This document shows positions 2,561 through 63,757 of a stretch of DNA of 64,000 nt, one piece after another (positions within the stretch are counted from its first letter, which is position 1; each line of letters starts with the position of its first letter). A program made the position numbers and the translations under genes. Source of the stretch: Nymphaea colorata (lineage: Eukaryota > Streptophyta > Magnoliopsida > Nymphaeales > Nymphaeaceae); the NCBI RefSeq assembly GCF_008831285.2, contig NC_045144.1, positions 6,560,176 through 6,624,175 on the forward strand. The letters are read 5' to 3'. Under the pieces are notes generated by a model, which saw only the letters and a list, made by a program, of their open reading frames with translations, ran no database searches and was not told where the DNA came from.

Positions 2561-5500
2561 AAAATCGAGGTATTCAATGTTTCATACACAAGATGATTTA
2601 GGGAAACTCAAAGGAAAGGTTAGAGTGTAAGGAAGCAGAAGAACATAATGCAACTTGCAAAAGGCTTAATATTGATATGATAAAGGATAGAAAGGGTTCA
2701 ACCAAAGAAGAAGCCTTAGCTGTGCATCGTGCCCTTTTTCTTCCTTTTCTACTGTTTCTTTTTCTTTAACTTTTTTATTTTTGATTGGTGGTACTGGAAC
2801 CGTTAACATCTGACTTCACACGTTCAGTCCTGATTTGTTGCTAGAATCATTTCAACCATAACAGTTGGGCTGAATAACATGAGCCAAAAAGGTAAACGTC
2901 AAACAGGAAGAGAGAAGCAGATAATGAATGTTAGATTTGTAGGAGAAACCAGATGTGTAAGATTTGTATCTGATAATTTCCTAGCCCTTCATATATGTCA
3001 ATACATTCCCTTATAGACTAGTGCAGCTCATCTTCAAACACCAGAAATTTGGTGCCATAGGATACAGGGATGGGTGGGTTTTCTAGTAATTTACTGAATG
3101 ATTATGTCTTTAAAGTTTAAACATGGCGTAGATCATCCTAAATCATGGTATATTAAGTGCAGGATATCTTTGTGTTTCAACTTGCCAGAAGCAAAGGATT
3201 TTGACTTCCAATTTCCAGAATTTTCATCGAGCTCTTTCCTTAGGTCAAGAAATATTTGATTGTTTCTAAAATATACAGTGTGGAAATTTCTTGTTGTGCT
3301 GTTTCTAACAACATATGATGCGAGATATTGATTATTTCTTCAGGTTTTACATTCTCTATTTTTGTCCTTTTTCTGACCATTAATTTTCTTGCCAATAAAT
3401 TTCTATTCATGTAATAAATAAAGTAAATGACAATTTGCCACTATTCATATAGGTGCCTGCAAGTTATTCAGAAGCTGCAATTGTGCTGTGAGAAATGCAA
3501 ATACAATTCGACACATTGTGCTTCTTTATCGGACTTGTTGAAGACAAGTACCAAGAATGGTTATGCAAAAGTTTGATTTTTCATTTTCGTGTATCAGGTA
3601 AATGTGCTAGCTGATCAGCTTACCAGTCTTGTAACTGCTTAGACTGGCTGCATCATGTTGCCTTGGTTCTGCTTAGGGTTTAGGTCTTTAGCTTAATGCT
3701 AAAGGTTCTCTTTCTCTTGTTCCATCTCTATTATTACTAGTACTATTTTCTCTGCGGTAATCAAGAAACCACCTGTGCAGGGTTGTTGCCAATTGTAGAT
3801 GGATTTCGAGCCTTAGTTGTCATTCCAGTAATCACCCCCTTACAGCCAAGGACTCTCACTGTCTAATCTCACTACAGCTGCTTCTCTTGTGTTTTCTTAT
3901 AGATAAGTGAATTCCTTCCTTTTTGACATGTGCAAGTGCTGATCTGGACACAGGAGCAACTTGAAGGTGATTGTAAAATGCAAATTCTATTGTATGAAAA
4001 AATTCTCCATCATCATCAGTGAAATCTTGATAAGTAGTAATAAGGTGATGGAATGTTGGGTTGAATGACCATACGATTGTGTGACAAACGTCGAGAGTTC
4101 ATGCCTAAAGTACAAGTTCAATGAAAATCCTCAATCCTGACCTGAAACTTTAGGACTAATTATTGCTGTAAATCTGGTTTTCGTTAGGCTTTCTCAGAAC
4201 TCTGAATTTTCGCTGCAAAGTCCAAATTATTTTCCAGTGATATGGATGTGGAATTGTGTCGAGAACATGTTTGGGTAACTGAAATTGAAGAAGAACCCTA
4301 TATTCGTGGAAGGTAAGAGATCATGGCCCATTGACAAACATTGGTACTTTTTGTAAGGTATCTGTGGGTTGTCAATCTCCCTGTTGACCTTCCTTATAGC
4401 ACATGCATCCCAACTTTCTAGAAAATAGTCGTTGGATTGTGTTTGGAAGGTATAATTGAGGCGATGCAAATGGAGATGGGAGTGCTGTCAATATTTTGTC
4501 AGTAAACATGGCCGTCTTGATACTTCTCCATGCCCATAACAGGAAGTGCTAAGAGTTTGTGCACATCAATCGATGCACATCACCTCAGGCCATTGCTGAG
4601 TTTATGCATGGGCAGAAATAATTCCTTCCAATTATGCCTGTTACTCTGTGGCAATCTGCTAAGTTCAACTTGAATTAGCAGTGAAGAACCACAAAAATAA
4701 TGACAATATATTTTTTACTTTTTCGAGCACAATAAGTCTTTGAAGTGCCAATGCACATTCAATATGGTTAAACTTATATCTTGTATCTTTTCATAGAATA
4801 ATTTCATATTACGAACACCGTTAAGACTTGGTTTGGTTATCATGTATTTGTTACGTTGAAGAAAAACTGTAATAATGACGTTTTCAGTTAACAATATAAC
4901 TTGTTTGTAAAAAGTTTCCAAAATAGTGAGTTGCAAGAAGATTGTGAAGAATAGAGATTTGAATACACAATCTCCAATCATAGAGACAAAGATACTGAAA
5001 CACTTGAACAATCTGCAGCTGCCTGTACACCTGCAACGTTTGCCTATACACCTGCTACGTTAGAATCTCGCCTTCGCTTAACTGCTGAGGTGTCTTGACA
5101 CCTAGAGATGTGCATAGCCCGATCGGACCCGAGCTTGGCATTGGGATTGGCTTGTCATGTCTCAACCCAAGCTCGATGCCATAATGTGCCGCACAAATTG
5201 GGTTAGTGGGTTGTTCCCATTCATTAAATTCTTATCGTGATGAATTTGTGATACTAATAAATTTTAAAAATAAAATTTGATACTTTAAAGTACTTGATAC
5301 GTTATTCGTTGCAGTTGAAAATGATGAGAAATGCCCTTGTATTTTTTTTTTTTAAAATAAAATCAGAAAAAATCGCCTCTTTTTTTGCAGTCCTGCTGTA
5401 AATGAAAACCAAAAACCAATGCCTGACTTTTCAGGCCTACTTTGCAAGAAAAAGATTCGTCGTTAGAGATGACGTGCAAGTAATACTAGTAGTTCATTAT

Positions 5501-6450
5501 CTAATAGATTTTTTTTGTTTTAATATTATATCTAAGAGTTGCCAGTATTTATTAAATCTATTCCTATCTAGTAATGGAACGCCATTGGATCAAATGGCAA
5601 AGACATTCTTGAGAAAAAATGGATTTTCTTGATGAAATTAAACATTGGATTGACAAAAAGAGGCCCCTTAGGGTGTTGTTTCTCAACAGTGGCGGTGACA
5701 GCTTGTTATTGTTCTATATATCTGTTACAAATATTAGGGCAGATTCATAAGATACTGTACATACATGAAATAGTTACATATTACCAGTATTTCCAAACAA
5801 TCTTTATAAGGATAAAAAATGCAAAAAAGGACTGACTTTAGTGACAGTTAGCTACTATTCTATATATCTGTCACAAATATGAGGGCATATTCATATGATA
5901 CTGTAACACCGTGTTCCTGTTCTAGTATTGAAATAGTTACATATTATTAGGTTGCCAAACAACATAGAAGAAAAATGCAAAAAAAATGACTGATTTTTTT
6001 TTTTTTGGTGAAAGACAAAGCTACCTAATTAAAGTAAAACTAGAGTCAACTTAATTTGAGTACAAACACAATTCAGATAATATATATTTCAACCAAGACG
6101 TAGATAGAATATGAAAGGCAGATATTATTTTAAACAATAATTATAAAAGCATAACTTTATTGTAAATAACTGATTAATTTTCTATTACTAGAGTAAAAAC
6201 ATTAAAATAATTTGGATAAAAAGGTACTAAAGCTATTGTTGTGTGATAAGACCTTACTAGGGGTAAAGGCATGTCATTAGCTTAAGTTAATTGGGTGGTG
6301 ATGTACAGGTTCTAAGATCTACACGATAACATGAACTTTATAAACAAGAATAATTTGATGTGCTTGAAAATATCACACAATTGGAGGCCTATTATGTAAA
6401 TATAAAAAAAACCTGCATGATAATCCGTTAAAACGGCCGCTCCTTGCTTC

Positions 6451-6454
<4 letters not shown>
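2561..6454. other. Intergenic, no supported gene
   Basis: Long AT-rich interval. A minus-strand 80-residue frame at 4227-4469 has fairly protein-like composition (IRKVNREIDNPQIPYKK) but no recognised family, start context or partner exon, so it is not called. Near 5110-5215 and again near 8440-8500 there are 'gcttgggttggg'-type sequences resembling degraded repeats. No tRNA-like cloverleaf was noticed. Confidence 0.5.

Positions 6455-6489
<35 letters not shown>
6455..6489. repeat. (TA)n microsatellite
   Basis: An uninterrupted alternating TA run directly precedes the 42-bp tandem duplication and the small membrane-protein ORF. Confidence 0.95.
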
Positions 6490-6492
<3 letters not shown>

Positions 6493-6573
6493 TCACTCTG
6501 ACTTCTGATCTCTCTGTTGCGCACCAAGACACATTCACTCTGATTTCTGATCTCTCTGTTGCGCACCAAGACA
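6490..6573 (+). repeat. Two 42-bp direct repeats upstream of small ORF
   Basis: Units at 6490-6531 and 6532-6573 begin cattcactctga and contain ctctctgttgcgcaccaaga. They differ at about one base. They probably lie in the 5' leader of the membrane ORF that starts at 6618. Confidence 0.9.
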
Positions 6574-39854: not shown

Positions 39855-42800
39855 CACGGATACGGCTGGGAAGGTCAAGTACCGGCGTCGACACGCCGAC
39901 ACGAGGACACCGCAGGATACGTTTTGGATCGGGTCTGGGTCAGACCCGATCCAAACCAACCCGATTTTCTTTTAAACCTTCGTTTTCTCTTTACGCGACT
40001 TTACCCTCTGACAGTCGACCTTCCTTACCTCGACGACTTCCGCGGCAGCACAGTTCGGCAATGGCGGGCAACGGCGACGGCGACGACCTCCGGCGACATC
40101 CGGTGGCGTCCGGCGGCAGCCAGCGACAGACAGGTAAGTGTTTTATCTATTATTTTCGACATTAGAAGTTAGAGTTTCAACTTTCATTTGGGGATTTTTT
40201 AGATTGGGTATTTCTTGCCGATTTTGGGATGTTTTGGTTTGAAGATTGGACGGTTAAGGATCCTATTCTTCACTGCTATGTGCGATATTTTCTTTTTTTG
40301 TTTGATTTTGGGATTTGGGGATTTTGCCGATTTGGGGATTTTGCCTTCGTTGTTGTTGATGATGCTAGATATGTAGCCTTCGTTGTTGTTGATGATGCTA
40401 GATATGTAGTAGGTTCAGCTACATAGTCGATCGCAGCTAGATATTATAGATGAACTCGGCTGTTGCTGGGAAATTAATGATTCTATTGGCTTCTAGCATG
40501 CAATCTAGATGGCATTAACATATAAAATGTTAATTTTAGAAGTTTATAACATGATAGTATGCATATTTCCTCGGCTGTTTTATTTCAGACGTTTTATGTT
40601 CATTATATGTTTTGTGACTGCATGTTTATGTTCATTATATGTTTAATGTAGTATGGCGAGGAAAGGAAAAACAGTGTCTCAGTCTCAACCTACAAGTTGT
40701 GGTTCTGGAGGTTCTGGATCAGCTGCGTCTATTGCACAACCACCATTATGGTCATACGTGACAATAATGGGGAAACCTCCGGGAGGTGGTGGAAATGCTT
40801 TTTTTAAGTGTAGTTTTTGTGAGGGAGAGTTCAATGGATCATATACAAGAGTGAAAGCACATCTGTTAAAAATCAATCAAAAAGGAATTCAGCCATGTAA
40901 AGATGTCAGTAACGAGACTTTGGCTCAGTTGAAGAAAGAACAAAAAGCCTTTGAGAATAAGAAAAGCACATCATCTGAATCTGGTTACATTGACATTGCT
41001 TCAATTTTACATGATGATATTCAGAATCCTCCCAAAAAAAGAAAAGTTGTTGATGTGCATCAGAAATCAATTATGGATTCATTTAGTTTACAAGGACGGC
41101 AAGAATTAGATCTAAAAGTGGCGACATTTTTTTATGCTAATTGCATACCATTTAATGTAGCTAGAAGTCCATATTGGAGAGACTTAGTTACATCTATTGC
41201 AAATTCTAACTTGGCTGGGTATGTTCCCCCTAATTCTGAAAGGCTTCGCACTGTACTACTAGAACAACAGATGACTCGAGTGAACAAATTGTTAAGAGTA
41301 TCAAAAGTTCACTTGGGATCGACATGGATTGTCTATTGTTTCTGATGGCTGGATAGATTTGCAACGACGCCCTCTTATTAATTTCATTGCAACTTCAGCA
41401 AATGGACCAATTTTCTTGAAAGCAATAGATGCATCTGGTGAATACAAAAGTGCTGAGTATTTGAAAGGATTGTTTATGGAAACAATTGAAGAAGTGGGGA
41501 AAGAAAATGTTGTTCAACTAATTACAGACAATGCACCTGTATGTAGAGCAGCTGGTATTGCGATAGAAAAGGAGTACCCTCATATCTTTTGGACTCCTTA
41601 TGCAGTTCATAGCTTAAATTTGGCTCTAAAGAGTATATGCGATCCACCAAGTAAAGAGCAAGATCCTCATGCTTATGAATTATGTTCGTGGATTGAAGAC
41701 TTGGAAAAGGATGTGAGGAACATCATAAATTTCATAGTAAATCATCAGCATGCACTCTCCATTTATAACAAGCATTCTGACCTAAAATTATTAAGAGTTG
41801 CAGAGACACGTTTTGCATCTCTAATTGTTATGGTCAAAAGGATAAAAAGGGTGAAAAGTGCATTGATCAGTATGGTGACTGATGATGATTGGAGTTTCTA
41901 CCGTGCTGATGATGATGACAAAGCTCAAGCAATCAAAAGATTGATTCTTGAAGACAAGTGATGTGATCAAATCTTCTATTTTCTTGCATTCACAGAGCCG
42001 ATCTGGGAGATGTTGAGAGTTCTTGATTGTGATAATTCAACGTTGCACTGTGTGTATGAGATGTGGGACACTATGATTGAAAAAATCCAAGAGGTTGTTT
42101 TTAAGCATGAGAAAAAAAATATTGCACTTGAAGATTCAGCATTTTTTGATCATGTGCATAGAATATTGATTGCAAGATGGGATAAAAGTAGCAATCCTCT
42201 TCAATGCATGGCACATACATTAAGTCCTAAATATTATGGAAAAAAGTGGCTTGCAGGGGGTCTTGAAAGAACCCCACCACATCTGGATCCAGAATTGTCA
42301 ACAAACAGATTGGCATGTATTAATAGGATTTTCATTGATGCACATCAAAATCGCCAAGCTAATGATGAGTTTGAAAGGTTTTGTACTGGAATTAGAGAAG
42401 ATGTAGGTGCAACTGCAGACAAAGATGATTTGCCATCAATGTCTTGGTGGATTAAACATGGATGTGCTTATCCTACTCTTCAATACCTTGCTTTCAGATT
42501 GCTAGCTCAACCTGCTACATCTTCATGCTGTAAGAGAAATTGGAGTACATATTCACAAATCCACACTATAAAACGAAATAATCTCACAAGCAAACGTGCA
42601 AAAAATCTGGTTTATGTGCATTCTAACCTTCGACTTCTATCAAGGAACAAAGCAGAATATAGGTAAATTAAGTATATGATTTATTGATTTAGATGTTTCT
42701 CTTCTTATTCGATAATAATATCATAATAATTACAATTTTTTTGTTTTGTAGGGAAGGGGAAACTAAAGATTGGGACGTGAATGTTGAGGACCTTAACTTA

Positions 42801-49400: not shown

Positions 49401-51540
49401 TTTCGGAACGGTTCGGTTTTATACCTGATCAAAACAGAATACATCAACATCCCTAAACTCCTCGAAGCTCCCTTATATAATTTAAGATTTTTTTGCAAAT
49501 CCTCTGCAGCTGTCTTGGGTTGCCCAATTAATGCATTTTAAAGCGTGATATGAAACTAATAAATGAGTCTCTCGATAGTGACCTGGGTTCGGTCCAGAGA
49601 AGCCCATTCAGTGACTGGATCTCATGACACGTTTGATTGTCCGGAGAACCTTAAATTTATTAGATATTTTTACCAACAATCAAACACATGATAAGGTTCC
49701 TCTACAGCCACGCATCTTCTTAGACTTGGAAAAATACGTTTATAAAAACTAGTGTTAGGAAAAACACGCTTTAGTTTAGGTTGTTTTTCTGAAAAACGGA
49801 GATTTGTCTATGATCCGAATTTTGAAGTTATGTGATCCATTCAATTTTACGTAGTATAAGGACATGATTAAATCCAAAAAATAGTTAATTTAATATATTT
49901 TCTTCATCAATTTATTGTTGAGATCATACCCGTAAGTTGAATTGCAAAAAAAGCACTTTAATAGTTTTATTCAATCCTTCTGGTTTTTGTCTGTGACCTA
50001 TTAATCTGGGACCTATGTATATATTCGAGGCTTTCAGATCTCCAGAGAGAACCTGGAATGATTATTTTTTAGATTCTTACAAAATGTGACGGATGCATTA
50101 AGTTCTCCCCAAAGAACCCGAAGCTATTACTTTTTAGATTCTTGCAAAATCGAATTAATCTATAATTAGAGAAATTATTTGCTTAGCTTTTAAAACATGA
50201 AATCATATTCATTCAGTTCATTTTATGGAAAAAAAAAACTACAAACAAGTTGAAATAATTTCCTTTCTTTAAAGAAGGATGTGTGACGTGCACATTGTAC
50301 ATTGTATGGACACATATTTTCTCACATTATATGTCACATTAATTCGCGCCAGTTGCTGTCTTCACATCCTTGAAAACGAGAGCTCACGGTCGAGAGAGTT
50401 TCTATACATAGACGGACCACTGCCCATCATGAACTCTTGGGCCAAGGGAAACGGCCAATAACTCTTCTTTAATCAGTCCACATCATTTCTTTAGAATATT
50501 CTTTGGTTGGACCGTGCGGACTCACGCGGTTAGAGAGCTAACAGAGCCGAAGCTTTTAACCAACCTTTTATTCGAGGCCCGCTCACATGAACAGGGGCAC
50601 TAAAAAAAAATCATTATAGGGGCCAAATTATATTTACAAATTTTTAACAAGAATTAAAATATTAATTTTTTATTTTTTTATTTTATGTAGGTTACACTGA
50701 AAAAATTTGAACAAGTGAATTCTGAACTCAAATCTGATTTGGTTTAGATGAGCTAAATATGAAACTTATGTCTGTCCGCCTATGCATGAAACAATATTTA
50801 ACTGTTTCTATGGTGAGAAAACCTCTACGGGTACTCGAACATCTCACTTGTCGAAGATTGGATATGTTCAATATCTGAAAAAATATCAAACAAAGTAGCG
50901 GACAAGATCCCAAGATCCAGGTACAGGCCAAAACACTATCCTCTCTCTGGCCACACAAAAGTCTGAGTACAATATAAGTTCATGTTTGGATATTGTAAAT
51001 TATATATGCCTTTAAATATTGACATTGAGTCTTGATAGTTGATACCGAAGATCTAAATGGGGTGTTTTGAGTTGGGATGAAGTTTGATAAAGTCTAGATT
51101 TCACACACAGCCATCAAAAAACAAGAATAAGGGCAATGTATTACTTGCATGATATTAGGGATATTAATGGATCAGATTCGAATCGGCATATCTATTTTTT
51201 CGGATATGCATATATTTGAATTCAAATTCAAATAATGAAAAGGCATATCTGAATCTCAATCCAAAATCTGATTTCACAATCCAAATCGGAATTTTAAACT
51301 AAATTTGTCTATTTTCAAAATGTAAGAGCATTGAATATGGGATAATTGTTTAAAAATAAATCCAAACTGGATTCATACCTGAATCCAAATGGATATTTAT
51401 GCATGTCTGGATCTGTATATGAATTCAAATCCAATAAAATATCATTTCTTAAATCCGAATCTGATCTGATTTATTAATCGGATATTAATTTTTTTTCGTA
51501 TCCGTTTTTTTTTTAAATGAGTCAGTTACATATCTGATCT
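46451..51540. other. Intergenic, no gene recognised
   Basis: AT-rich with repeats. A 'tgtgggtagttgcctacacag' fragment near 48171 matches the family at the window start. Two related 'gaatcagatttggat' stretches (about 49050-49440 and 51160-51500), rich in repeated 'aaatctgat', look like diverged copies of one element. A repeat near 50590 has gaacaggggcac. No coding feature. Confidence 0.5.
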
Positions 51541-51740
51541 GGCCAGGCATGACTGGTTGTGGCTGGCCATCCCTAGCTAGGCGTGTCCGGCCTTGGCTTG
51601 GCCGGGAATGGCCAGTAATCGCCGGCCGTGGATTTGCCGAGCATGGCCAGTCGTGGTCGGCGTGGATTGGCCGGGTGTGCCTTGTGCAGGCAGAGATGGG
51701 CATGGCCGGTCATAGCTGCCGTGCTCTCCACCAACACAAC
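51541..51740. repeat. GC-rich GGCCGG module, copy 1
   Basis: A run of tggccatccctagctaggcgtg, ggccgg and atggccagt motifs forms many short palindromes. It is far more GC-rich than its surroundings. It recurs at 54459-54615, 60977-61070 and 61930-62010. Confidence 0.75.
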
Positions 51741-52061
51741 AGGTGCAGTTGAATCATCAACCAACACAACAGCCCAGATTAGATCAATAGGTGTTTAATA
51801 AATTTGTTGCACAAACCAAAACTAATAAAACTATGCAGAGATCAAAATGAATGAAACAGAACAGAGAACAAAACAAGAGTATACCAGTCTTTCAAATCCA
51901 TTTAGAAAATAGATTGAACCACCTTATTGCTTCACTCTAATTGGTTTACCTCCATATTCGCATCCCCAATTTTTTTTTTTCTTTTTGGAGCACTGTGAAA
52001 ACCAAAATCAGAGTTAAAACGAGTTCGAAGTCGCTTAAAATAAAGTCGACCATTTGTTGGA

Positions 52062-52146: not shown

Positions 52147-53165
52147 GATCATAATAATAACAAAATAATACTTTTATTATTTTACAAACAGCCCCTATTT
52201 GTTTTACATCAAATATTAACTTGTTTTTTAAAAACAATTTTTTTTTTTTGCAACCGCACTTGCTAAAACAAGTCAACAATCAATTGAACATAAATCGAAG
52301 TTAAAACGAGTTTGAAGTCGATTAAAATAAAGTCGACCACCCCCTCCCCCCCCCCCCCCCCCACACACACAATTATAGATAATGATCATAATAATAAGAA
52401 AGTAATAGTTTTATTATTTTACAGACAGCCCATATTTATTTTATATCAAATATTAATTTTTTTTTTGAGCGACCGCACATGCCATGCGAGGCTGATCGCT
52501 CTCAGCACGTTTTTGGGCGTTGATGAGGCGCAACCCCCATTTTCCTTCAAAAATCGATCGTTAGAAGGCGATTTTGAACGTCTTTAGGAGGGAATTAGCG
52601 GTCCCTACACCTCAAAAGAGTATTTGCAGTTCTAATGGCCAATCATACTTAGCCAAAGCCCATTCTTCAAAAATTTTTTTTTTGATGTATTTGAAATTCA
52701 CATGAAAATGTTGTGAAATTCAAAAAAATTCAAATTTTAAGTTTTGGAACGAAAACTCCCTATAAAAACCTCCATAATCATTCCTCTTGGGCATGAGCTA
52801 GCCTCATGGAGAAACTTTAAGGCATGAACTCGTTTTAAATCCTTTTAAGATAAAAAACACAGTCCTTGGGCACAAAGATTAATCATTAAAGGTATGGCAC
52901 GAACATGGTATAATAACAGCTTATATTATGTAAAAATAGGTGCAGTTGAATCAACAACCAACACAACAGCCCAGATTAGATCAATAGGTGTATAAACAAT
53001 TTGTTGCTCAAACCAAAACTAATGAAACAAGCAACAAGTGCGTGAGATATGTATAGATCAAAATGAATGAAACAGAACAAAGAACAAAACAAAAGTATAC
53101 CAGTCTTTCAAATCCATTTAGAAAATAGATTGAACCACCTTATTGCTTCACTCTAATCGCCTTAC

Positions 53166-54200
53166 CTTTCCGGTGTTGTGGTGGTATGTGCAACCATGTT
53201 CATGTCTTCAACAATGACATGTTCAGGCATGCGAGATCTAGGCTCAGGCATGGGAGATGGAGGCAAAGCGTTAGGCTCTTCTCTTGTTCCCTCCTCAGAC
53301 CCTCTGGTCTGAACCCTCCAACTCCTGGTTGGTAGAAGCCCCGTCCATTCAATCTCCATTCCCGTAGGCCTTCCTCCAGCAGTCTCGGTTCCCAGAGGCC
53401 TCCTCCACTCAATTGCCTAAAGTTAGAAAATAGCACTAATTCATTTACCAAACCAAGTTACAAACAAGAACAGGGGAAGGCCAAAAACGCCTTCCAAATA
53501 GATCGTCCACTTCTTCCTACATAAGTACCGAGAGAGTTGGTAGAGGGAGAAAGAGAATTACCCTCACTAAGTTGCTAATATCATTAAGAGGTATGCGTGA
53601 TGTGATACATCCTCTGTACTCCCGCCAACAAGTTCTCGTCACCCACCTCTGACCTCTCAGGGTTAGCCCCGCGACCAGCACTATTAGGCTCATGCATCTC
53701 TCCACCTAAAGCAAACAAAAAGAAAAAATTAACTGGCATTTAGTCACCCAAAAAAAGTAACCAACAAGATATTGAAAACAAAAATCTCTTTCTACATTTT
53801 TTTCTTCTTCTTCTTGTTCCTTGCACCACAAAGCAAAAACTCTTCCATTGATGATGCCAAGCAAACTCGCGTAACCAATGAAATTGAAAAAAAGACGATC
53901 ACTCCCCCATCCCTCTCTGTGTGTGTGTGTGTGTGTGTCACTTTACATGTTCTTGAACAAAAAAACGAAAATCAACATCAGAATTCATTCGTCGGAAAGT
54001 GAAAGGAAAGTCGACGGCTCTCACTTTCTCTCTCTACATGTTCTTCTTCTTCTTCCTCCAGCCTTCAATGAACCCACTCCTTCTTGGTCTTCTGGAGACA
54101 TGGGACGCTCTTTTCTTCGTCCCCTCTCTTCACCTCCGTGAGAATCAAATATTTGTCCTTCCCTACGTTGTAAGTTCATTTAAGTTCAAATTTTGAAATA
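53166..54200 (-). pseudogene. Unknown multi-exon cassette, unit 1
   Basis: Minus strand, in transcription order: an acidic/basic exon (about 54200-53990, E-rich stretch then FTFRR), exon B (about 53705-53562) and exon A (53416-53166). Exon B is flanked by tttag|gtgga and gagg|gtaatt. Exon A is flanked by actttag|gc and gaaag|gtaagg. Exon A encodes RGSEEGTREEPNALPPSPMP and ends VIVEDMNMVAHTTTTPER. In exon B the shared segment NPERSEV is followed by a frame break relative to the other units. Family not recognised. Confidence 0.45.
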
Positions 54201-54458
54201 ATTAGGTGCACTTAGTCACTTTTTGGAAGACCACGTGTGCGGGATACAAGTTTATTCCATCAACAACATGCGACGTAATCAGCATACAAATTTAAGGTGT
54301 GTCAAATTTTTATGGCATTTTATAAAATTTTTAGTCTACCCCATGAATTTTATTAACTTTTCAAATTGATGGCTTGTCCTCTTTTAGAAATTACTTTTGC
54401 ATCCCACTATTTTTTTATAAATTTTGGAAACAGTGTTAATCATTTATAAAACACGGTC

Positions 54459-54615
54459 GTGGCTGGCCATCCCTAGCTAGGCATGCCCGGCCTTCGCCTG
54501 GCCGGAAATGGCCAGTTAAGGCCGGGCATGACCAGTTATGATCGGCGTGGATTGGCCGGGTGTGCCTTGGGTGGGCAGGGATGGGCATGGCCGGTCGTAC
54601 CTGCCGTGGCCTCCA
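54459..54615. repeat. GC-rich GGCCGG module, copy 2
   Basis: It matches copy 1 in order: gtggctggccatccctagct, cccggccttcgcctggccgg, cggcgtggattggccgggtg. Confidence 0.75.
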
Positions 54616-55659
54616 CCTACTTAGACTTCAAAGTAAAAAAATCGATAAACGCATAACGTTTCAATCAAATTAGTAGACAAATGGTTGCTTGTAATCCTTT
54701 TAATAGAAAAAACACGTAGTCCTTTGGGGCGCAGATTAATCATTAAAGGTATCGCACAAATAGAGTATAATAACGGCCTATATTATGTAAAAATAGGTGC
54801 AGTTGAATCATCAACCAACACAACAGCCCAGATTAGATCAATAGGTGTTTAATCAGTTTGTTGCACAAGCCCAAAGAAATGAAATAAATAACAAGTGCGT
54901 CAGATATGGAGAGGTCAAAATGAATGAAGCGGAACAGAGAACAAAACAAGAGCATACCAGTCTTTCAAATCCATTCAGAAAATGGATTGATCCACCTTAT
55001 TGCTTCACTCTAATCACCTTACCTCCACGTTTGCATCCCCAATTTTTTTTTTTTTTTTTCGTTCTGGAGCACTCTAAAAACAAAATCAGAGTTAAAACGA
55101 CTTCGAAGTCGCTTAAAATAAAGTCGACTATTTGTTTGAATATATATATATATATATATAATGATCATAATAATAACAAAATAATAGTTTTATTACTTTG
55201 CAAACAGCCCCCATTTATTTTATATCAAATATTTTTTTTTGTGCGACCGCGTGTGCGTTCGTGCGTCGTCGCAACACGCGACCACGCATGCCACGCGAGG
55301 GCAATTGCTCTCAATGTGTTTTTGCGCATTGCGGGGCGCAACCCCCATTTTCCTTTCGAAAATCAACCGTGAGAGGGCGATTTTGAACGTCTTTAGGAAG
55401 GCATTAGCCCTGCCTACACCTCAAAAGAGAATTTGCATTTCTAATGGCCAATCTTACTTAGCCAAAGCTCATACTTCAAATTTTTTTTTTTTGAATTACT
55501 TAAAATTCACATGAAAGTTTTGAGTTTTGACATGAAAACTCTATATAAAAATCCCCATAATCCTCCCTTTTGGGCTTCTTGGAGAAACTTTAAGGCATGA
55601 ACTCATTTTAAATCCTTTTAAAAGAAAAAAACGCATAGTCCTCATATGTTTTTTGGTGT

Positions 55660-56745
55660 TGTGGCAGTTTAAGAAACCCCATTAATGTCTTCAACAACGC
55701 CATGTTTAGGCATGTGAAATGGAAGCGGAGCATTCGGCTCCTCTCTTGTCCCCTCCTCAGAACCTCTAGCCTGAGCCCTCCTCCTCTTGGTTAGCAGAAG
55801 CCTCATGCCTTCAGTCCCCATTCCTGTAGGCCTAATCCCAGCAGTGCCGGTTCCCATAGGCCGCCTCCCCTTAGTTTGAAAAGATGCTGATTCCGGTCGC
55901 CCTTTCACTCTCCATAAGTACCGAGGAGCATATAGAGCGAGAAAGAGACAGAGATAGAGAATTACCCTCACTAATTTGCTGATATCATTAAGAGGAATGC
56001 ATGGATAGGACGACGACAAGAGTCTCCTCCATACTCCTACCAGCAAGTTTTCGTCATGCACCTCCGACCTCTCACGGTTAGCACCGCTACCAGCATTACC
56101 AGGCTCTTGCATCTCTTCAACGACCCAGTCCCTTGAAAAACAGTCGCCAACGACTTATTGAAAACGAAAAGCTCTTTCTACCTTTTCTTCTTCTTCTTCC
56201 TTGCATCAACAAGCAAAAACTCTTCTATGATGATGCCAAGCAAGCTCGTGTAATGAATGAGAATGAAAAAACAGACGATCCGTCCATCAAAAGAGGATTT
56301 GGAGTCCTAATGGCCAATCTCACTTAGCCAAAGCTCATTCTTCAAAAAAAATTTTTTTTTTTGAATTATTTGAAATTCACATGACAATGTTGTGAAATTG
56401 AAAGGAAAATCAAATTTTGAGTTTTGAAATGAAAACTCCCTATAAAAACCCCCATAATCCTACCTTTTGGGCATGAGCTAGACTTTTGATTTAAGATGCC
56501 TTCTCTCTCTCTTTACCTATTTGATCCTGGCCTTGCTCAAAAAAGGAAAAGTCGGCATTAGGATTCAGTCCTTTGATCTCTCTCTCTCTCCTACCTGTTC
56601 TTCTTCTTCTTCTTCCTCATGCCTTCGATGAACCCACTCCTTCTTCCTCTCCTGGAGATCCGGGGATTCTTCTTTCTCCCTCCCCTCTCTTCACCTTGGT
56701 CAGAATCAAATATTTTTCTTCTAAGTTCAAATTTTGAAATAATTA
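55660..56745 (-). pseudogene. Unknown multi-exon cassette, unit 2
   Basis: Exon B (about 56112-55970) has an open frame with NAGSGANRERSEVHDENLL and then LLSSSYPCIPLNDISKLVR before the donor gtaatt. Exon A (about 55870-55665) reads TGMGTEGMRLLLTKRRRAQA, then RGSEEGTREEPNAPLPF, ending KHGVVEDINGV with a stop shortly after. An E-rich first exon equivalent lies near 56745-56590. The open, conserved frames in A and B suggest that the ancestor was coding. Confidence 0.45.
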
Positions 56746-57399
56746 GATGCACTATTTTCTTATAAATTTTGAAAACAACGTTAATCTTTTATATACCTGT
56801 CGACCGCCACATATTTTCTTCTTTTTAGGATTAATGTTACTTAAACTTCGTTATTTTATCAATTTTGAACCTTAATTGCTTAAAAATTGCCAACTTGGAT
56901 GGAGAATGACCTTTGTACTTAATTTAGGTACTGTTAATTTCAGGTGTGTCAAATTGCTATGTATTGAAAAATAGATTGCAAGGGTACGCACAAAAGCCAG
57001 ACATCTTAACTCCTGCCCATGAAATAGTAAAGGATGGACCTTGTCATGAACTATTATTTAAATCAACTGTTCTAGCGAATGGTATGAGATATATTTCATT
57101 ACTCAGTTTTTTTTAATGGTAAAGCAACAAAAGTTGCTTTACTAGAAATAATGAAGTCTGGCGATGTGACACAATGCATTCCCAATCCTGCCGTATGCAT
57201 TACTTTTGTTGTTCGGTGTTTGTATTTAGTTTTGTTAGAAAGATTCTAGAAATTTTCGTCAAAAAGGTGTGCCATGTACTGTGACTTCTTGCTTAATTTG
57301 AGGCGCCATTGTTGTTTCCCTACAAAAGCATTAGAATAAATAACTTTTGCTACTTTCACCCTTCATAAGTACTGAGAGAGCAGATAGAGAGAGAAAGAG

Positions 57400-57925
57400 A
57401 GATAATTACCCTCACTAAGTTGTTGATATCATTAAAAGGAATGCATGGATAAGACGACGATAGGAGACTCTTCCGTACTCCCTCTAGCAAGTCCTCGTCA
57501 TGCACCTCTGACCTCTCGGGGTTAGCACCGCCGCCAGCATTACCGGGCCCTTGCATGTCTCCACCTACATCCAACAAAAAGAAAAAAATGAACCAGCATA
57601 CAGTCATCGGAAAAACAGTCGCCGACGACTTATTGAAAACAAAAAGCTCTTTCTACCTTTTCTTATTCTTCTTCCTTGCACCAAAAAGCGAAAACCCTTC
57701 CATGTTGAGGCAAAGCAAGCTCACGTAATGAATGAAAATGAAAAAACAGACGATCCCTCCATCTCTCTCTTTTTACATGTTCTTCTTCTGCCTTGCACAG
57801 AAAAAGGAAAATCAACATCAAAATTCAGTCGCCCGAAATTAATAGGAAAGCCGATTGCTCTCTCCCCCTATCTGTTCTTCTTCTTCCTCCTGTCTTCGAC
57901 GAACCCAACCCTGCTTCTTCCTACC
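57400..57925 (-). pseudogene. Unknown multi-exon cassette, unit 3 (partial)
   Basis: Exon B (57563-57410) is open and closest to an apparent consensus: GGDMQGPGNAGGGANPERSE followed by VHDEDLLEGVRKSLLSSSYP. It is preceded by a good acceptor (ttggatgtag|gtgg). The first-exon equivalent is at 57925-57793. Exon A is missing here; only a short remnant of its end is seen near 58480-58550, outside this unit. Confidence 0.45.
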
Positions 57926-58479
57926 GGGTGATTTTGAGCGTCTTTAGGAAGACATTAGCCCTGCCTGCACCTCAAAAGATGATTTGCAGTCCTAATGGCC
58001 AATCTTACTTAGCCAAAGCTCATTCTTCAAAAAAATTTTTTTTTAGAATTATTTGCAATTCACATGAAAATGTTGTGAAATTAAAAAAGAAATCAAATTT
58101 TGAGTTTTGACACGAAAACTCCTTATACAAACCCCCATAATCCTCCCTTTTTGGAATGAGCTAGCCTCTTGAAGAAACTTTAAGGCATGAACTCGTTTTA
58201 AATCCTTTTAACAGAAAAAACGCATAATCAAGATTAGGTAAAAATAGGTGCAGTTGAATAATCAACCAACACAATAGCCAAGATTAGATCAATAGGTGTT
58301 TAATCAATTTGTTGCACAAACAGAAACTAGTGAAACATATAACAAGTGCATCAGATATGTGGAGATCAAAATGAATGAAACAGTCCAGAGAAGAAAAAAA
58401 GAGTATACCAGCCTTTCAATTCATTCAGAAAATGGATTGATCCACCTTATTGCTTCACTCTAATCAACTTTCCTCCACC

Positions 58480-58555
58480 TCCTCAGATGTTTTCTGGTGT
58501 GGTGGCGGTTTAAGCAACCCCATTCAAGTCTCCAACAACGCCATGTTCAAGAATG
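58480..58555 (-). pseudogene. Exon A 3' remnant of the unknown cassette
   Basis: A short stretch equivalent to the end of exon A (text like ccaccacaccagaaaacatc on the minus strand) without the rest of the exon. It is followed by a 'gatgtggcatagtgcattcc' module also found near 57158 and 60310, showing a rearrangement breakpoint. Confidence 0.45.
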
Positions 58556-58909
58556 GCGATGTGGCATAGTGCATTCCCAATCCTGTTGTATGCAGAAAGC
58601 AAAATAAGAATTTCAGCATTTTATTAATGAATAATAATTTAAAGAATTTGTGAATTATCGTAACGATAAGCCGTAGAAGATAGAAAGTTGAATCATCAAC
58701 CAACTGGCCCACATTAGATCAACATGTGCTTAATCAGTTTGTTGCACAAACCCAAACTAATAAAACAAACAACAAGTGCGTTGGATATGAAGAGGTCAAA
58801 ATGAATGAAGTGGAACAAAGTACAAAACAAGAGTATACCAGTCTTTCAAATCCATTCAGAAAATGGATTGATCCACCTTATTGATTCACTCTAATTGCCC
58901 TACCTCCAC

Positions 58910-59865
58910 CTCCTCAGATGTTTTCTGGTGTTGTGGAGGTTTGGACAACCCAAGTCATATATTCAACAATGTCAGGTTTAGGCATGGGAGATGGAGGGGA
59001 AACATTCGGCTCCTCTCTAGCTGCCTCCTCAAAACCTCTGGCCTGAGCCCTCCTACTCCTGGTTAGCGGAAGCCTCCTCCCTTCAGTCCCTATTCCCGTA
59101 GGCCTCATCCCAGCAGTCTTTGTTCCCACAGTCCTGGTTCCTAGAGGCCTCCTCCCCTCAGTTTCCTGAAGTTTGCAAATAGTGTTGATTCAAGTCGCCC
59201 CCTCCACCCTCCATAAATACTGAGGGAGCAGATTTTGTGAGATAGAGAGATAGAAAGAATTACCCTCACTAAGTTGCTGATATCATTAAGAGGAATGCAT
59301 GGATAGGACAACGACAGGAGTCTCCTCTTACTCCTGCCAGCAAGTTCTCATCACGCACTTCTAACCTCTCACTATTAGCACCACTGCCAGCATTACTGGG
59401 CTCCAACATCTGTCCACCTACATCCAACAAAAAGAAAAAAATGAGCCAGCATTCAATCGCCAGAAAAATAGTCGCCGACAACTTATTGAAAACAAAAAGC
59501 TCTTTCTATCTTTTCTTCTTCTTCTTCCTTGTACCAAAAAACAAAAACTCTTCCATGATGATGCCAAGTAAGCTAATAAAAAAGGACACGATCTTCACAC
59601 ACACACACTCTCTCTTTACCTATTCTTCTGTCTTGCACAAAAAAAGGAAAATCGGCATTAGAATTCAGTCGCCTGAAATTAATAGGAAAGTCGATCGCTC
59701 TCTCTCTCTCTCTCCCTACCTGTTCTTCTTCTTCTTCCTCCTGCCTTCGACGAACCCACTCCTTCTTCCTCCCTGGAGACCAGGGGATGCTTTTTTCTCC
59801 CTCCCCTCTCTTCGCCTTGGTCGGAATCAAATATTTTTCCTCTAAGTTCAAATTTTGAAATAATT
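58910..59865 (-). pseudogene. Unknown multi-exon cassette, unit 4
   Basis: Order on the minus strand: an E-rich first exon (59851-59640; KKEWVRRRQEEEEEEQVGRE, then AIDFPINFRR), exon B (about 59420-59265; NAGSGANSERLEVRDENLLA, then a frame break), and exon A (about 59165-58914; TAGMRPTGIGTEGRRLPLTR, then GFEEAAREEPN and VVQTSTTPEN). Exon A has internal TAGMRPTGIG/TEGRR repeats. It is the most complete unit, but the break in exon B argues against a working product. Confidence 0.45.
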
Positions 59866-60976
59866 AGGTGCACTATTTTATTACAAAATTTGAAAACAAT
59901 GTTAATCCTTTATATACCTGTCGACCGTTCACAAAATCTGAAAACATTGTTTTAGTTCGACCACCCCGTATTTTCATCTTTTTAGGCTTAATGTTACTGA
60001 AACTTCGTTATTTTATCCATTTTGAACCTTAATTGCTTGAAGATGCCAACTTGGATGGAGATTGGCCTTTGTGTTTAATCTAGGTACAATTCATTTCAGG
60101 TGTGTCAAATTGCTATGTATTCAAAAATAGATTGCAAGAGTACGCACAAAAGGCACACATCTTAACTCCTACCTATCAAACAGTGTAGTAGGGACCTTCT
60201 CAAAAACCATTATTTAGATCAACTATTCTAGCGAATGGTCTGAGATATTATTCTTTACCATGTTTTTTTTAATGGTGAAGCACCAAAAGTTGCTTTGATA
60301 GAATTATCGCGATGTGGCACAGTACATTCCCAATCCTGTGGTATGCATTACTTTTGCTGTTCGGTGTTTGTATTTAGTTTTGTTAGAAAGATTCTAGAAA
60401 TTTTCGTCAAAAAGGTTTGCCGTGTATTGTGACTTCTTGCTTAATTTTAGGCACCACTATTGTTTCTCTGCAAAGGCATTAGAATAAATAGCTTTTGCTG
60501 ATGCATCTTGGTAACCGGAAAGTAAAATAAGAATTTGAGCATTATTTATTAATGAATAATAATTTATAGAATTTGAGAATCATCATAACGATAAGCCACA
60601 GAAGAAAGAATATGTCATTAACACAAACCCCATAAAAACCAGGCACCACCTACTTGGACCTTAAAGTCAAAAACTCGACGAACGCATAACATTTTAATCA
60701 AATTAGTAGACGAATGGTTGCTTGTAATCCTTTTAAGTGAAAAACGCTTACTCTTTTGGCACGTAGATTAATCATTAAAGGTATCACACTAACAAAGTGC
60801 GTTAGATATGCGGAGATCAAAATGAATGGAGTATAACGGAGAACAATTCACAAGAGTATATCAGTCTTTCAAATCCATTCAGAAAATGATTGATCCACCT
60901 TATTGCTTCACTCTAATTGTCTTACCTCCACCTCCCTAAATGATTTCGAGTGTTCTCTTGGTTTGAACAACCCTGT

Positions 60977-61070: not shown

Positions 61071-61929
61071 TGAAATTTTGGATAGCAGCAAATTCTTGGC
61101 ATGAACCACGTCATTAGAACATTGGATCAGATTTAATTTGATGAGGTAATGTCTTGTTCTTCAAAGCTTTTCCTCCACAAGATTCACAATGCAAACAAAT
61201 ATGAAGAGATTGTTGTGTCTAAAAGCATTTGTACTAACAAGTTGACAGTTTTTATGCATTTTAAAGTGTTTGGTTAAATTATATTATAAGCTTCAAAGAT
61301 TATCCTTCTAAAAGACATCTCAAGTAGCATAGAAAATGTTTTAAAGGATCATCTTTGAGGTTCATGATAGAATCATAAAACACTCCTTAAGAGTATGAGA
61401 ATTATCGTAACGATAAGCTACAATAGAAAGAATATGTCATTAGCACCAACACCATAAAAACCAGGCACCACCTACTTAGACCACAAAGTAAAAAAATCGA
61501 CGAATGCATAACATTTTATTCAAATTAGTAGATGAATGTTTGCTTGTAATCCTTTTAAGAAAAAAAGGCATACTCCTTGGGCGCACATATTAAACATTAA
61601 AGTTATCGCACCAACAAACTTAGACAACGGCCCACATTATGTAAAAATAGGTGCAGTTGAATCATCAACCAACACAACAGCCCAGATTAGATCAACATGT
61701 GTTTAATCAATTTATTGCACAAACCAAAACTAATGAAACAAACAATAAGTGCGTCGAACATGCAGAGATCAAAATGAATGGAGCAAAACAAGGAACAAAA
61801 CAAGAGGATATCAGTCTTTCAAATCCATTCAGAAAATGGATTGATCTACCTTATTGCTTCGCTCTGATTGCCTTACCTCTACCTCCACAGATGTTTTCTA
61901 TTGTTTTGGCGGTTTGAACAACCCTCTTC

Positions 61930-62010: not shown

Positions 62011-62351
62011 GCCTCACTGACTAGAGTTTTGCATAGCAGCAAATTCTTGGAATGAACCACGTCATAGAAATTTGGATCACATTTAAATTGATGTGGTAAT
62101 GGCTTGTTCTTCAAAGCTTTTCCTCCACAAGATTTCACAATGCAAACAAATCTGAAGAGATTGTTGTGTCTAAAAGCATTTGTACCACCAAGTTGACAGT
62201 TTTTATGCACTTAAAGTGTTTGGTTAAATTAGATTATGAGCTTCAAAGATTATCCTTCTAAAAGACATCTCATACTGCATAGAAATTGTTTTAAAGCATC
62301 ATCTTTGAAGCTCATACTTAGATCAGACTACCCATTAGCAACCAACTTCAG

Positions 62352-63567
62352 GAAGCACCTGAGCCGATGGATGAGGTGTACTTGAATTTGCTTGACTGGA
62401 GCAGCAAAAATGTTTTGGAAATTGCTCTCGAGCATTCCCTCTATCTCTGGGATGCATCAGAAGGTGCTGCTTGTTCCAAGCTCATGTCAGTTGAGGACAA
62501 TAGCCCTGTTACAAGCGTTAGTTGGGCTCCTAATGGTCCTATTATAATGTTTACATGCTTTTTGATATACTAACAATACTTTCATGAAACTTTACAGCTG
62601 AGAGCTCTGCGTGGTGGCGATCAATCACAAGTTGGTTTTCTTGCGCGAAATTCTCACGTCCTATTATAATGTTTACATTCTTTTTGATATACTAACAATA
62701 CTTTTATGAAACTTTACAGCTGAGAGCTCTGCGTGGTGGCGATCAATCACAAGTTGGTTTTCTTGCGCGAAATTCTCACTTTCTTACAACTGGAGATATG
62801 GATGGTTTAATTTTTAATAATGATGTGTGCATTCCATCACACATGGTTGAAGAATACAAAGGACATGAACTAGAAGTTTGTGGATTAAAGTGGTTGAGCT
62901 CAGGCCGACAATTAGCCAGTGGAGGTGATGACAAACTTTTGCACATTTGGGATCGGACAATGGCATCAGAGCAAAATGGCAAGCAGCATCAGTGGCTACA
63001 CAAGCTGGATGATCATATAGGTACAGTGAAAGCATTAGCCTGGTGTCCATTCCAGAGGAACCTACTTGCGTCAGGGGGTGGTAATCTCGACTGTTGCATT
63101 AAGTTTTGGAATACTTGTACTGCGTGTTGCTTGAACTCCATGGATACTGGTTCACAAGTTTGTGCCCTCTTGTGGAGTAAAACCGATGGGGAGTTTCTCA
63201 GTTTACATGAGATTGATTGGATCGAGGGTGATAGTGTGAGAGAGTTGATATTGTGGAAATATCCGTCGATGGTTATGATGGCAGAGCTAGTTGGTCATAC
63301 TTCCACGGCTCCATTCATGGCTCAGGTAGGAAAGTGTTCAGTTTTAGTACTGTACCAGATGGAAAAACCTTTAGATCTACTGCTAACCTGGTTTCTTTTG
63401 TTTCCTAAAATTTTCAGAGTCCAGATGGGTGCAGAGTAGCACCTGCCTTTGGAGGAGATCAAACATTGCGAATCTGGAACGTGTTTGGAAAACCTGAAAC
63501 AAAGAAAAAATTGGTTAAATTACTAGGAGTTAGGTGCCTATCTACCTCTAATACAGTGCAAATGTGA
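62352..63567 (+). pseudogene. CDC20-like WD40 protein, truncated and internally deleted
   Basis: An exon at 62352 to about 62536 encodes EAPEPMDEVYLNLLDWSSKN and ends in VTSVSWAPNG. The next exon is 62720-63325 and the last 63418-63567, with a GT-AG intron after MAQ, at the family's usual spot before SPDGC. WD40 hallmarks are clear: [55 protein letters not shown]20 activates the anaphase-promoting complex. Missing here are the N-terminal half (C-box, destruction signals), the block between SWAPNG and LRALRGG (one WD blade), and the C-terminal Ile-Arg tail. A 122-bp tandem duplication covers the start of exon 2. Frames after 62720 are open, so a partial protein is possible, but the missing parts point to a pseudogene. 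Confidence 0.8.
62536..62779 (+). repeat. 122-bp tandem duplication across intron end and exon start
   Basis: Copies at 62536-62657 and 62658-62779 each hold a branch/T-rich stretch, acceptor tttacag and the exon start ctgagagctctgcgtggtgg. They differ at two positions by eye, so the duplication is very recent. Confidence 0.93.
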
Positions 63568-63757
63568 CATGATTTATTCTTTAAATGCATCAACATAATC
63601 TAGTCCGTGGCAGAGAGACATCTACTGAGATGGTTTCAGAAGAAGCAAAAAGCGTTCTATTTGAGGATGATGTTGATGGATAATGGTTTGTGTGAACGCG
63701 ACTATCTTTTGTCCCATTATCCAGACGAACTCAGGTCTTCAGTTGTTATAATCACAG

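Follow-up and report, generated by a model that had tools for sequence, protein, structure and literature searches.

We have analysed a stretch of 64,000 nucleotides from Nymphaea colorata (NC_045144.1, positions 6,560,176 to 6,624,175 of the forward strand; hereafter the window), which contains on its minus strand, between 53.2 and 59.9 kb, four diverged and related units of a cassette made up of a glutamate-rich (E-rich) exon, exon B and exon A. This cassette is very probably a degenerate, lineage-specific paralogue of the OSD1 (GIGAS CELL1)/UVI4 family, which was once coding, was amplified locally together with a fragment of HYL1 and has since decayed. The array as a whole has the look of a graveyard of genes and not of a gene that works and is yet unknown. 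The units of the window are called c1 to c4 (units 1 to 4) and a fifth copy is called c5, whereas the capitals C1, C3, C6, C7 and C11 denote contigs of the genome. Both the window and c5 lie on C7, and the genome searched (407.8 Mb) is the one from which the window was taken.

Relation of the cassette to OSD1/UVI4-like genes

The initial annotation did not recognise the family of the cassette and proposed a search with its peptide. When such a search was carried out in the plant's own genome, using a probe that crosses the B/A junction, it returned the C1 copy, c5, c3 and c2, followed by weak matches on C11 (E 0.18) and C6 (E 1.0), and it thereby led to two genes. These are apparently intact, as judged from exons joined by eye rather than from full gene models. 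On C6, ..RRRSILPAWYPRTPLRDITAIVR closes an exon in front of a GT (in a fuller reading, ..KRRRSILPAWYPRTPLRDITAIVR and then GT), and a later open stretch, AIEMRRARM.., ends SLMR before a stop. At C11 an exon reads SHDKEN..RRRSPLPSWYHRTPLRDVTAIVR and ends ..SRRRSPLPSWYHRTPLRDVTAIVR, the intron position being read on the donor side only, and a downstream open frame on the same strand ends SLMSMR before a stop. Both genes have a KEN box (DKEN) and a fitting destruction box (D-box), and each has an open frame that ends in MR.

The likeness of the core motif to OSD1/UVI4, presumed at first, was later tested by means of published motifs. OSD1 is a plant inhibitor of the anaphase-promoting complex/cyclosome (APC/C) with a GxEN/KEN box, a D-box of the form RxxLxx[LIVM] and a C-terminal MR tail; these three motifs are marked on an alignment with the paralogue UVI4, the D-box and the MR tail are important for function, and OSD1 is bound by CDC20-type and CCS52-type activators of the APC/C (PMC3406007). 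OSD1 and UVI4 are both described as negative regulators of the APC. The cassette presents a GxEN-like box, then the D-box region and then an intron directly after (I/L)VR, and this intron falls at the same place as in C6, with exon B ending ..LPSSYPCIPLNDISNLVR in c5 and ..LPSFYPRLPLNNISNLIW in the C1 copy. The homologous core motif, LPS.YPR.PL..I, and the intron position are shared with C6 and C11, these two genes and not the Arabidopsis sequences having served for the comparison. The D-box formula fits two of the six copies, c1 (RIPLNDI, out of frame with the c1 start codon) and C1 (RLPLNNI), which retain its arginine, and c1 also has GDEN.

The similarity of exon B to these genes was compared with that of shuffled sequences. 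For all four open exon B peptides, local alignment with C6 gave scores of 50-62, the highest scores from 2000 shuffles being 45-48, and with C11 the scores were 44-74 (P<=0.001 in four of four, 2000 shuffles). In the eight comparisons taken together P was 0.001 or lower throughout, and a profile comparison of exon B yielded a probability of 94% (E 1.3e-7). The 3' flank of the units has ten matches in the genome, seven in the window, two on C1 and one on C6, and the last of these (C6:15477747-15477784) is 92% identical over 38 nt and lies directly downstream of the stop codon of the C6 gene. Since this match is independent of the similarity in exon B, the relation spans the gene from the exon with the start codon to the 3' untranslated region (UTR), and the 38-nt stretch is possibly a conserved 3' UTR element. 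It corresponds to L032:5747-5784 and to 58836-58873 of the window and is the sole DNA match listed between the C6 gene and the units. It folds into a small hairpin with unconvincing energies (z -0.7 to -2.3, 5 sequences).

Pfam scans of the frames in which exons A and B and the E-rich exon lie returned no family, a PDB search with exon B of the C1 copy gave no match at E<=10, and a text search of the literature for the motif RTPLRDI found no paper. A cyclin-B-like protein, suggested by a motif, was our first idea and was dropped after the C6 and C11 genes had been found. The family that had been left without a name can be given as OSD1/UVI4-like.

Condition and distribution of the copies

The four units can be aligned from the leader through intron 1, exon B and intron 2 to exon A, and their repetition is far beyond chance: among the matches listed in a self-comparison, at least 16 lie on the same strand, cover 300 or more columns and are 72-88% identical. 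The number of units and the minus strand were correctly described; the order in which the E-rich exon is followed by B and then by A, said to be common to all, is present in three of the four (c1, c2, c4), exon A being missing from c3. The array also extends past the limits first assigned to it: the 3' flank occurs, once only in part, at seven places from 51.7 to 61.9 kb, and the array includes HYL1 fragments at 56.8-57.3 and 60.0-60.6 kb.

Exon B was detected in six copies, every one of which carries a damaging change. Within the window the donor GT of exon B is kept in all four units and the acceptor in three (c1, c3, c4). An AG acceptor stands before exon A in the three units that have this exon, and it is reshaped in c2. 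The claim that splice consensus is found at the exon edges of every copy fails because of c2, in which the exon B acceptor falls inside a 31-nt gap. Frame breaks, which had been reported for at least two copies of exon B, are indeed present, caused by an 11-nt gap in c1 and by a 1-nt gap in c4, and exon B is open in c2, c3, c5 and C1. The join between the exons is in frame, with B ending at a codon boundary (..LVR) and A continuing in its own long open frame (joint reading by eye). Apart from its lost acceptor, c2 has an early stop in exon A; c5 has lost the acceptor AG and has an in-frame stop in exon A; and in C1 the donor context of exon B is changed and an inverted duplication lies inside exon A. 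Judged from their sequences, none of the six looks able to make a protein of the OSD1 type, and the copies would be non-functional today.

The proposal of a coding ancestor is supported by the resemblance to the C6 and C11 genes, both apparently intact and with motifs that are conserved, and by the ratio of nonsynonymous to synonymous differences (pN/pS) in exon B, with weaker support from the indels. In the frame of c3, exon B has a pN/pS below the median of a shuffled null in all 15 pairs of the six copies and reaches P<=0.05 in seven; the pairs share copies and are not independent tests, and with fewer than 50 codons the test is weak. In frame 0 of exon B no codon pair of the four window copies contains a stop, compared with 6-54 in the other five frames. 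There is, then, a modest trace of purifying selection in exon B and none in exon A, so that the comparison of substitution rates put forward in the initial annotation favoured coding descent for the one exon and pointed in the refuting direction for the other.

Gaps in exon B are multiples of three in two of four cases. In the compared stretch of exon A this is true of all six (two overlap, and one is at the edge or internal depending on the alignment), against 6 of 19 in the neighbouring intron sequence, and two further gaps at the 3' end of exon A are not multiples of three (17 nt in c1 and 1 nt between the C1 and C7 copies). Fisher's test of exon A against intron gaps gives P 0.005 without these two end gaps and 0.049 with them. 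Repetitive sequence makes up part of exon A and favours gaps of these lengths, so the indel evidence from this exon is weak.

With exon B DNA as probe at least five places were found in the genome, the four window units and c5, which lies at C7:6826206, about 207 kb away and on the strand opposite to that of the window units. Exon A DNA detected at least six: c4, c2, c5, c1, a fragment at 58.5 kb of the window and a locus at C1:23.63 Mb, the sixth copy, which holds both exons. These counts are lower bounds, as stated by the search tool. What emerges looks like a small local family and not a dispersed transposon. It had been suggested that the cassette was spread by a repeat, and this idea is unsupported, because the places are few and are clustered on C7 with one locus on C1, as local duplication predicts. 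To the right of the window, C7:6626200-6630869 matches C1:23624440-23624909 and 23632715-23635282 at about 89-92%. These flanking segments are far closer than the cassettes themselves (about 68-78% over the longer matches between cassettes), which may point to a more recent duplication or to a mobile element.

On the plus strand, to the right of both unit 2 and unit 4, there is a broken double-stranded RNA-binding domain (dsRBD; Pfam dsrm, E 3.6e-4, just below the curated cut-off). Its likely parent is the gene at C3:21.936 Mb for HYL1, a protein of microRNA processing that binds double-stranded RNA, where exon 2 is open and has as its nearest PDB match Hyponastic leave 1 (E 3.9e-40). The piece comprises the end of intron 1, exon 2 with the first dsRBD, and the start of intron 2, and is 84-85% identical to the C3 DNA. 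It resembles HYL1/DRB1 in this span, whereas it differs in being a single exon with intron edges, frame-broken and on the strand opposite to the cassette; the window fragments contain only the broken first dsRBD and the C3 gene, by reading, both. Copies c2, c4 and c5 are fused to one such piece, and a single 14-nt gap in exon 2 is common to all three. Distances are 0.13-0.14 among them and 0.12-0.14 to C3. The shared gap and the like distances argue for one joining event followed soon by duplication. The captured host gene that had been suggested is a better description of the HYL1 piece than of the cassette. Next to c1 and C1 no HYL1 match was detected, and since these two also keep the D-box arginine, c2 to c5 may be a younger group. 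This grouping is not resolved by a tree of the six copies, in which all three inner branches are unsupported.

Weighing the interpretations

Several results weigh against assigning the cassette to the OSD1/UVI4 family or against its coding descent. The D-box arginine is replaced by cysteine in c2, c3, c4 and c5; a strict GxEN/KEN box is found in one copy of six (c1, GDEN), the other five having RDEN, HDEN or HDED; and the C-terminal MR tail is seen in none, the copies ending at earlier stops. Exon A is much shorter than its counterpart and dissimilar, and beyond the junction residues it aligned with C6 and C11 no better than shuffles did in four of four comparisons. Pfam gave no match for two C6 frames and one C11 frame (not the one ending SLMSMR), and the name OSD1/UVI4 rests on published motifs rather than on direct comparison with the OSD1 and UVI4 sequences. 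In exon A, pN/pS is near neutral (no pair of 15 at P<=0.05, and seven above the null median). The pooled ratio of one reverse-strand frame of exon B is about as low (0.45 vs 0.43), but that frame contains stops. On account of the missing MR tail, the cassette is filed as a degenerate relative and not as a functional member of the family.

The following history would account for the observations. The ancestor would have been a short gene consisting of a 5' leader exon rich in glutamate and arginine, an exon B with start codon, GxEN-like box and D-box region, an intron at the position typical of the family, exon A and a 3' UTR; its product was presumably translated and may have acted as an APC/C inhibitor. 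One copy would then have been joined head-to-head to the HYL1 piece, and the chimeric segment duplicated locally, perhaps through unequal exchange, and once to a place 207 kb away. Frameshifts, loss of splice sites, stops and deletions would have caused the decay of the copies.

A Pack-type transposon (Pack-MULE or Helitron) might instead have gathered OSD1/UVI4-like, HYL1 and CDC20 fragments and moved as a mosaic element. Fragments of three unrelated genes do lie within 11 kb, and the HYL1 piece begins and ends inside introns, as this scheme would have it. We nevertheless consider it unlikely, because the genomic places that the probes detect, at least 5-10 of them, lie almost without exception on C7, and because the long inverted repeats listed between 50 and 64 kb consist of four pairs of AT runs and a fifth pair at 71%, no systematic search having been aimed at short terminal repeats, Helitron ends or target-site duplications. 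It is less likely still that at least one copy is a working gene, for example for a shortened OSD1-like protein or a truncated competitor. The four open copies of exon B and its trace of selection speak for such a gene, as does c2, which reads for 161 amino acids through B, intron and A. The lesion in each of the six copies speaks against it, and c1 and C1, the only two with the D-box arginine, are themselves broken. Least probable of all, and already disfavoured, is a non-coding repeat with chance open frames: it would agree with the near-neutral exon A and gains from the low power of a test on so few codons, but it is opposed by the stop-free frame of exon B and by the similarity to C6 and C11.

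Neighbouring features and the inverted duplication on C1

The features of the array and its surroundings are listed in Table 1. The relic at 62.3-63.6 kb has a Pfam CDC20/Fizzy match, and a CDC20-like relic that is 91-93% identical to it is present on C1 (L015:1085-2526), close to the C1 copy and oriented in the same way relative to the cassette. A frame ending IR is preserved in the relic on C1, and the window relic contains a 122-bp tandem duplication. The adjacency of CDC20-like and cassette relics does not show a functional pair. GGCC-rich degenerate stretches are present at unit edges (51540-51737 and 54440-54612), frames resembling a BED-finger/hAT-like transposase were recognised by eye at 40647-42663, and an Rfam scan of the window found no family at gathering scores.

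Table 1. Positions in the window of the cassette units and adjoining features.
Feature	Position	Strand	Remarks
Unit 1 (c1) exon A	53162..53416	-	Open reading frame AIEWRRPLG...TTTTPER, stop; 17-nt gap at 3' end relative to c4
Unit 1 exon B	53562..53706	-	Frame broken by 11-nt gap; GDEN kept; D-box RIPLNDI in other frame
Unit 1 E-rich exon	54020..54140 (limits approximate)	-	Probably 5' UTR; upstream sequence does not match HYL1
Unit 2 (c2) exon A	55669..55869	-	Early stop (..NGVS, stop)
Unit 2 exon B	55966..56112	-	Open; 3' splice site inside 31-nt gap
Unit 2 E-rich exon	56577..56740	-	Array-derived piece 56287-56489 between exon and rest of unit
HYL1/DRB1 fragment	56804..57332	+	Intron 1 end, exon 2 (first dsRBD), intron 2 start; frame-broken
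Unit 3 (c3) exon B	57410..57556	-	Open; exon A absent, sequence change at about 57353
Unit 3 E-rich exon	57838..57931	-	Truncated
Further HYL1 fragment remnant	58555..58641	+	Adjoins further unit remnant 58480-58555
Unit 3' flank/3' UTR	58686..58909	-	38 nt match sequence directly after C6 gene stop codon
Unit 4 (c4) exon A	58914..59165	-	ETEGRRPLG...TSTTPENI, stop
Unit 4 exon B	59264..59409	-	Frame broken by 1-nt gap
Unit 4 E-rich exon	59689..59855 (limits approximate)	-	5' UTR-like
TATA-like GGTATATAAAGG upstream of unit 4	59907..59918	-	Read directly; c2 and c5 are preceded by similar strings
HYL1/DRB1 fragment joined upstream of unit 4	59961..60568	+	Frame-broken
3' flank places	51747-51954, 52944-53167, 54801-55028, 58252-58478, 58686-58909, 60795-60931 (partial), 61655-61882		
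CDC20-like WD40 relic adjoining array	62322..63570	+	Truncated, frame-broken

The duplication inside exon A of the C1 copy (L014:3323-6513, C1:23.6283-23.6315 Mb) is inverted, with arms of 1.5 kb (L014:3323-4824 and 5014-6513) that are 94% identical, are separated by a spacer of about 190 nt and carry exon A and 3' UTR, once in each orientation. Exact stretches shared with C1 measure 22-29 nt for the C7 copies of the window and at most 16 nt for the surroundings of c5, and the C6 stretch shares none of 15 nt or more. The leader and exon B of the C1 copy lie upstream of the duplication, and transcription from this leader, if it occurs, would yield a long hairpin. Inverted duplication is reportedly a source of plant MIRNA genes, and in the length and identity of its arms, which include exon A and 3' UTR, C1 resembles the proposed origin of such genes and of small interfering RNA (siRNA) loci; loci of this kind are transcribed and processed, and C1 is a candidate for one. 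One might speculate, with little expectation of being right, that C1 is a proto-siRNA locus forming from an OSD1/UVI4-like gene, whose 1.5-kb hairpin transcript would give rise to small RNAs that silence the C7 copies and so help to pseudogenise a young paralogue encoding an APC/C inhibitor.

OSD1-type genes set meiotic and endoreduplication programmes, and for this reason an extra OSD1-like copy that was gained and lost would inform us about turnover in a small family. The inverted duplication on C1 offers a testable lead on the origin of hairpin RNA loci. The cassette, apparently unknown before, can in all probability be named as a lineage-specific paralogue of the OSD1/UVI4 type that has decayed and is joined to part of HYL1, and open frames and splice signals in arrays of this kind can come from a parent gene by inheritance.

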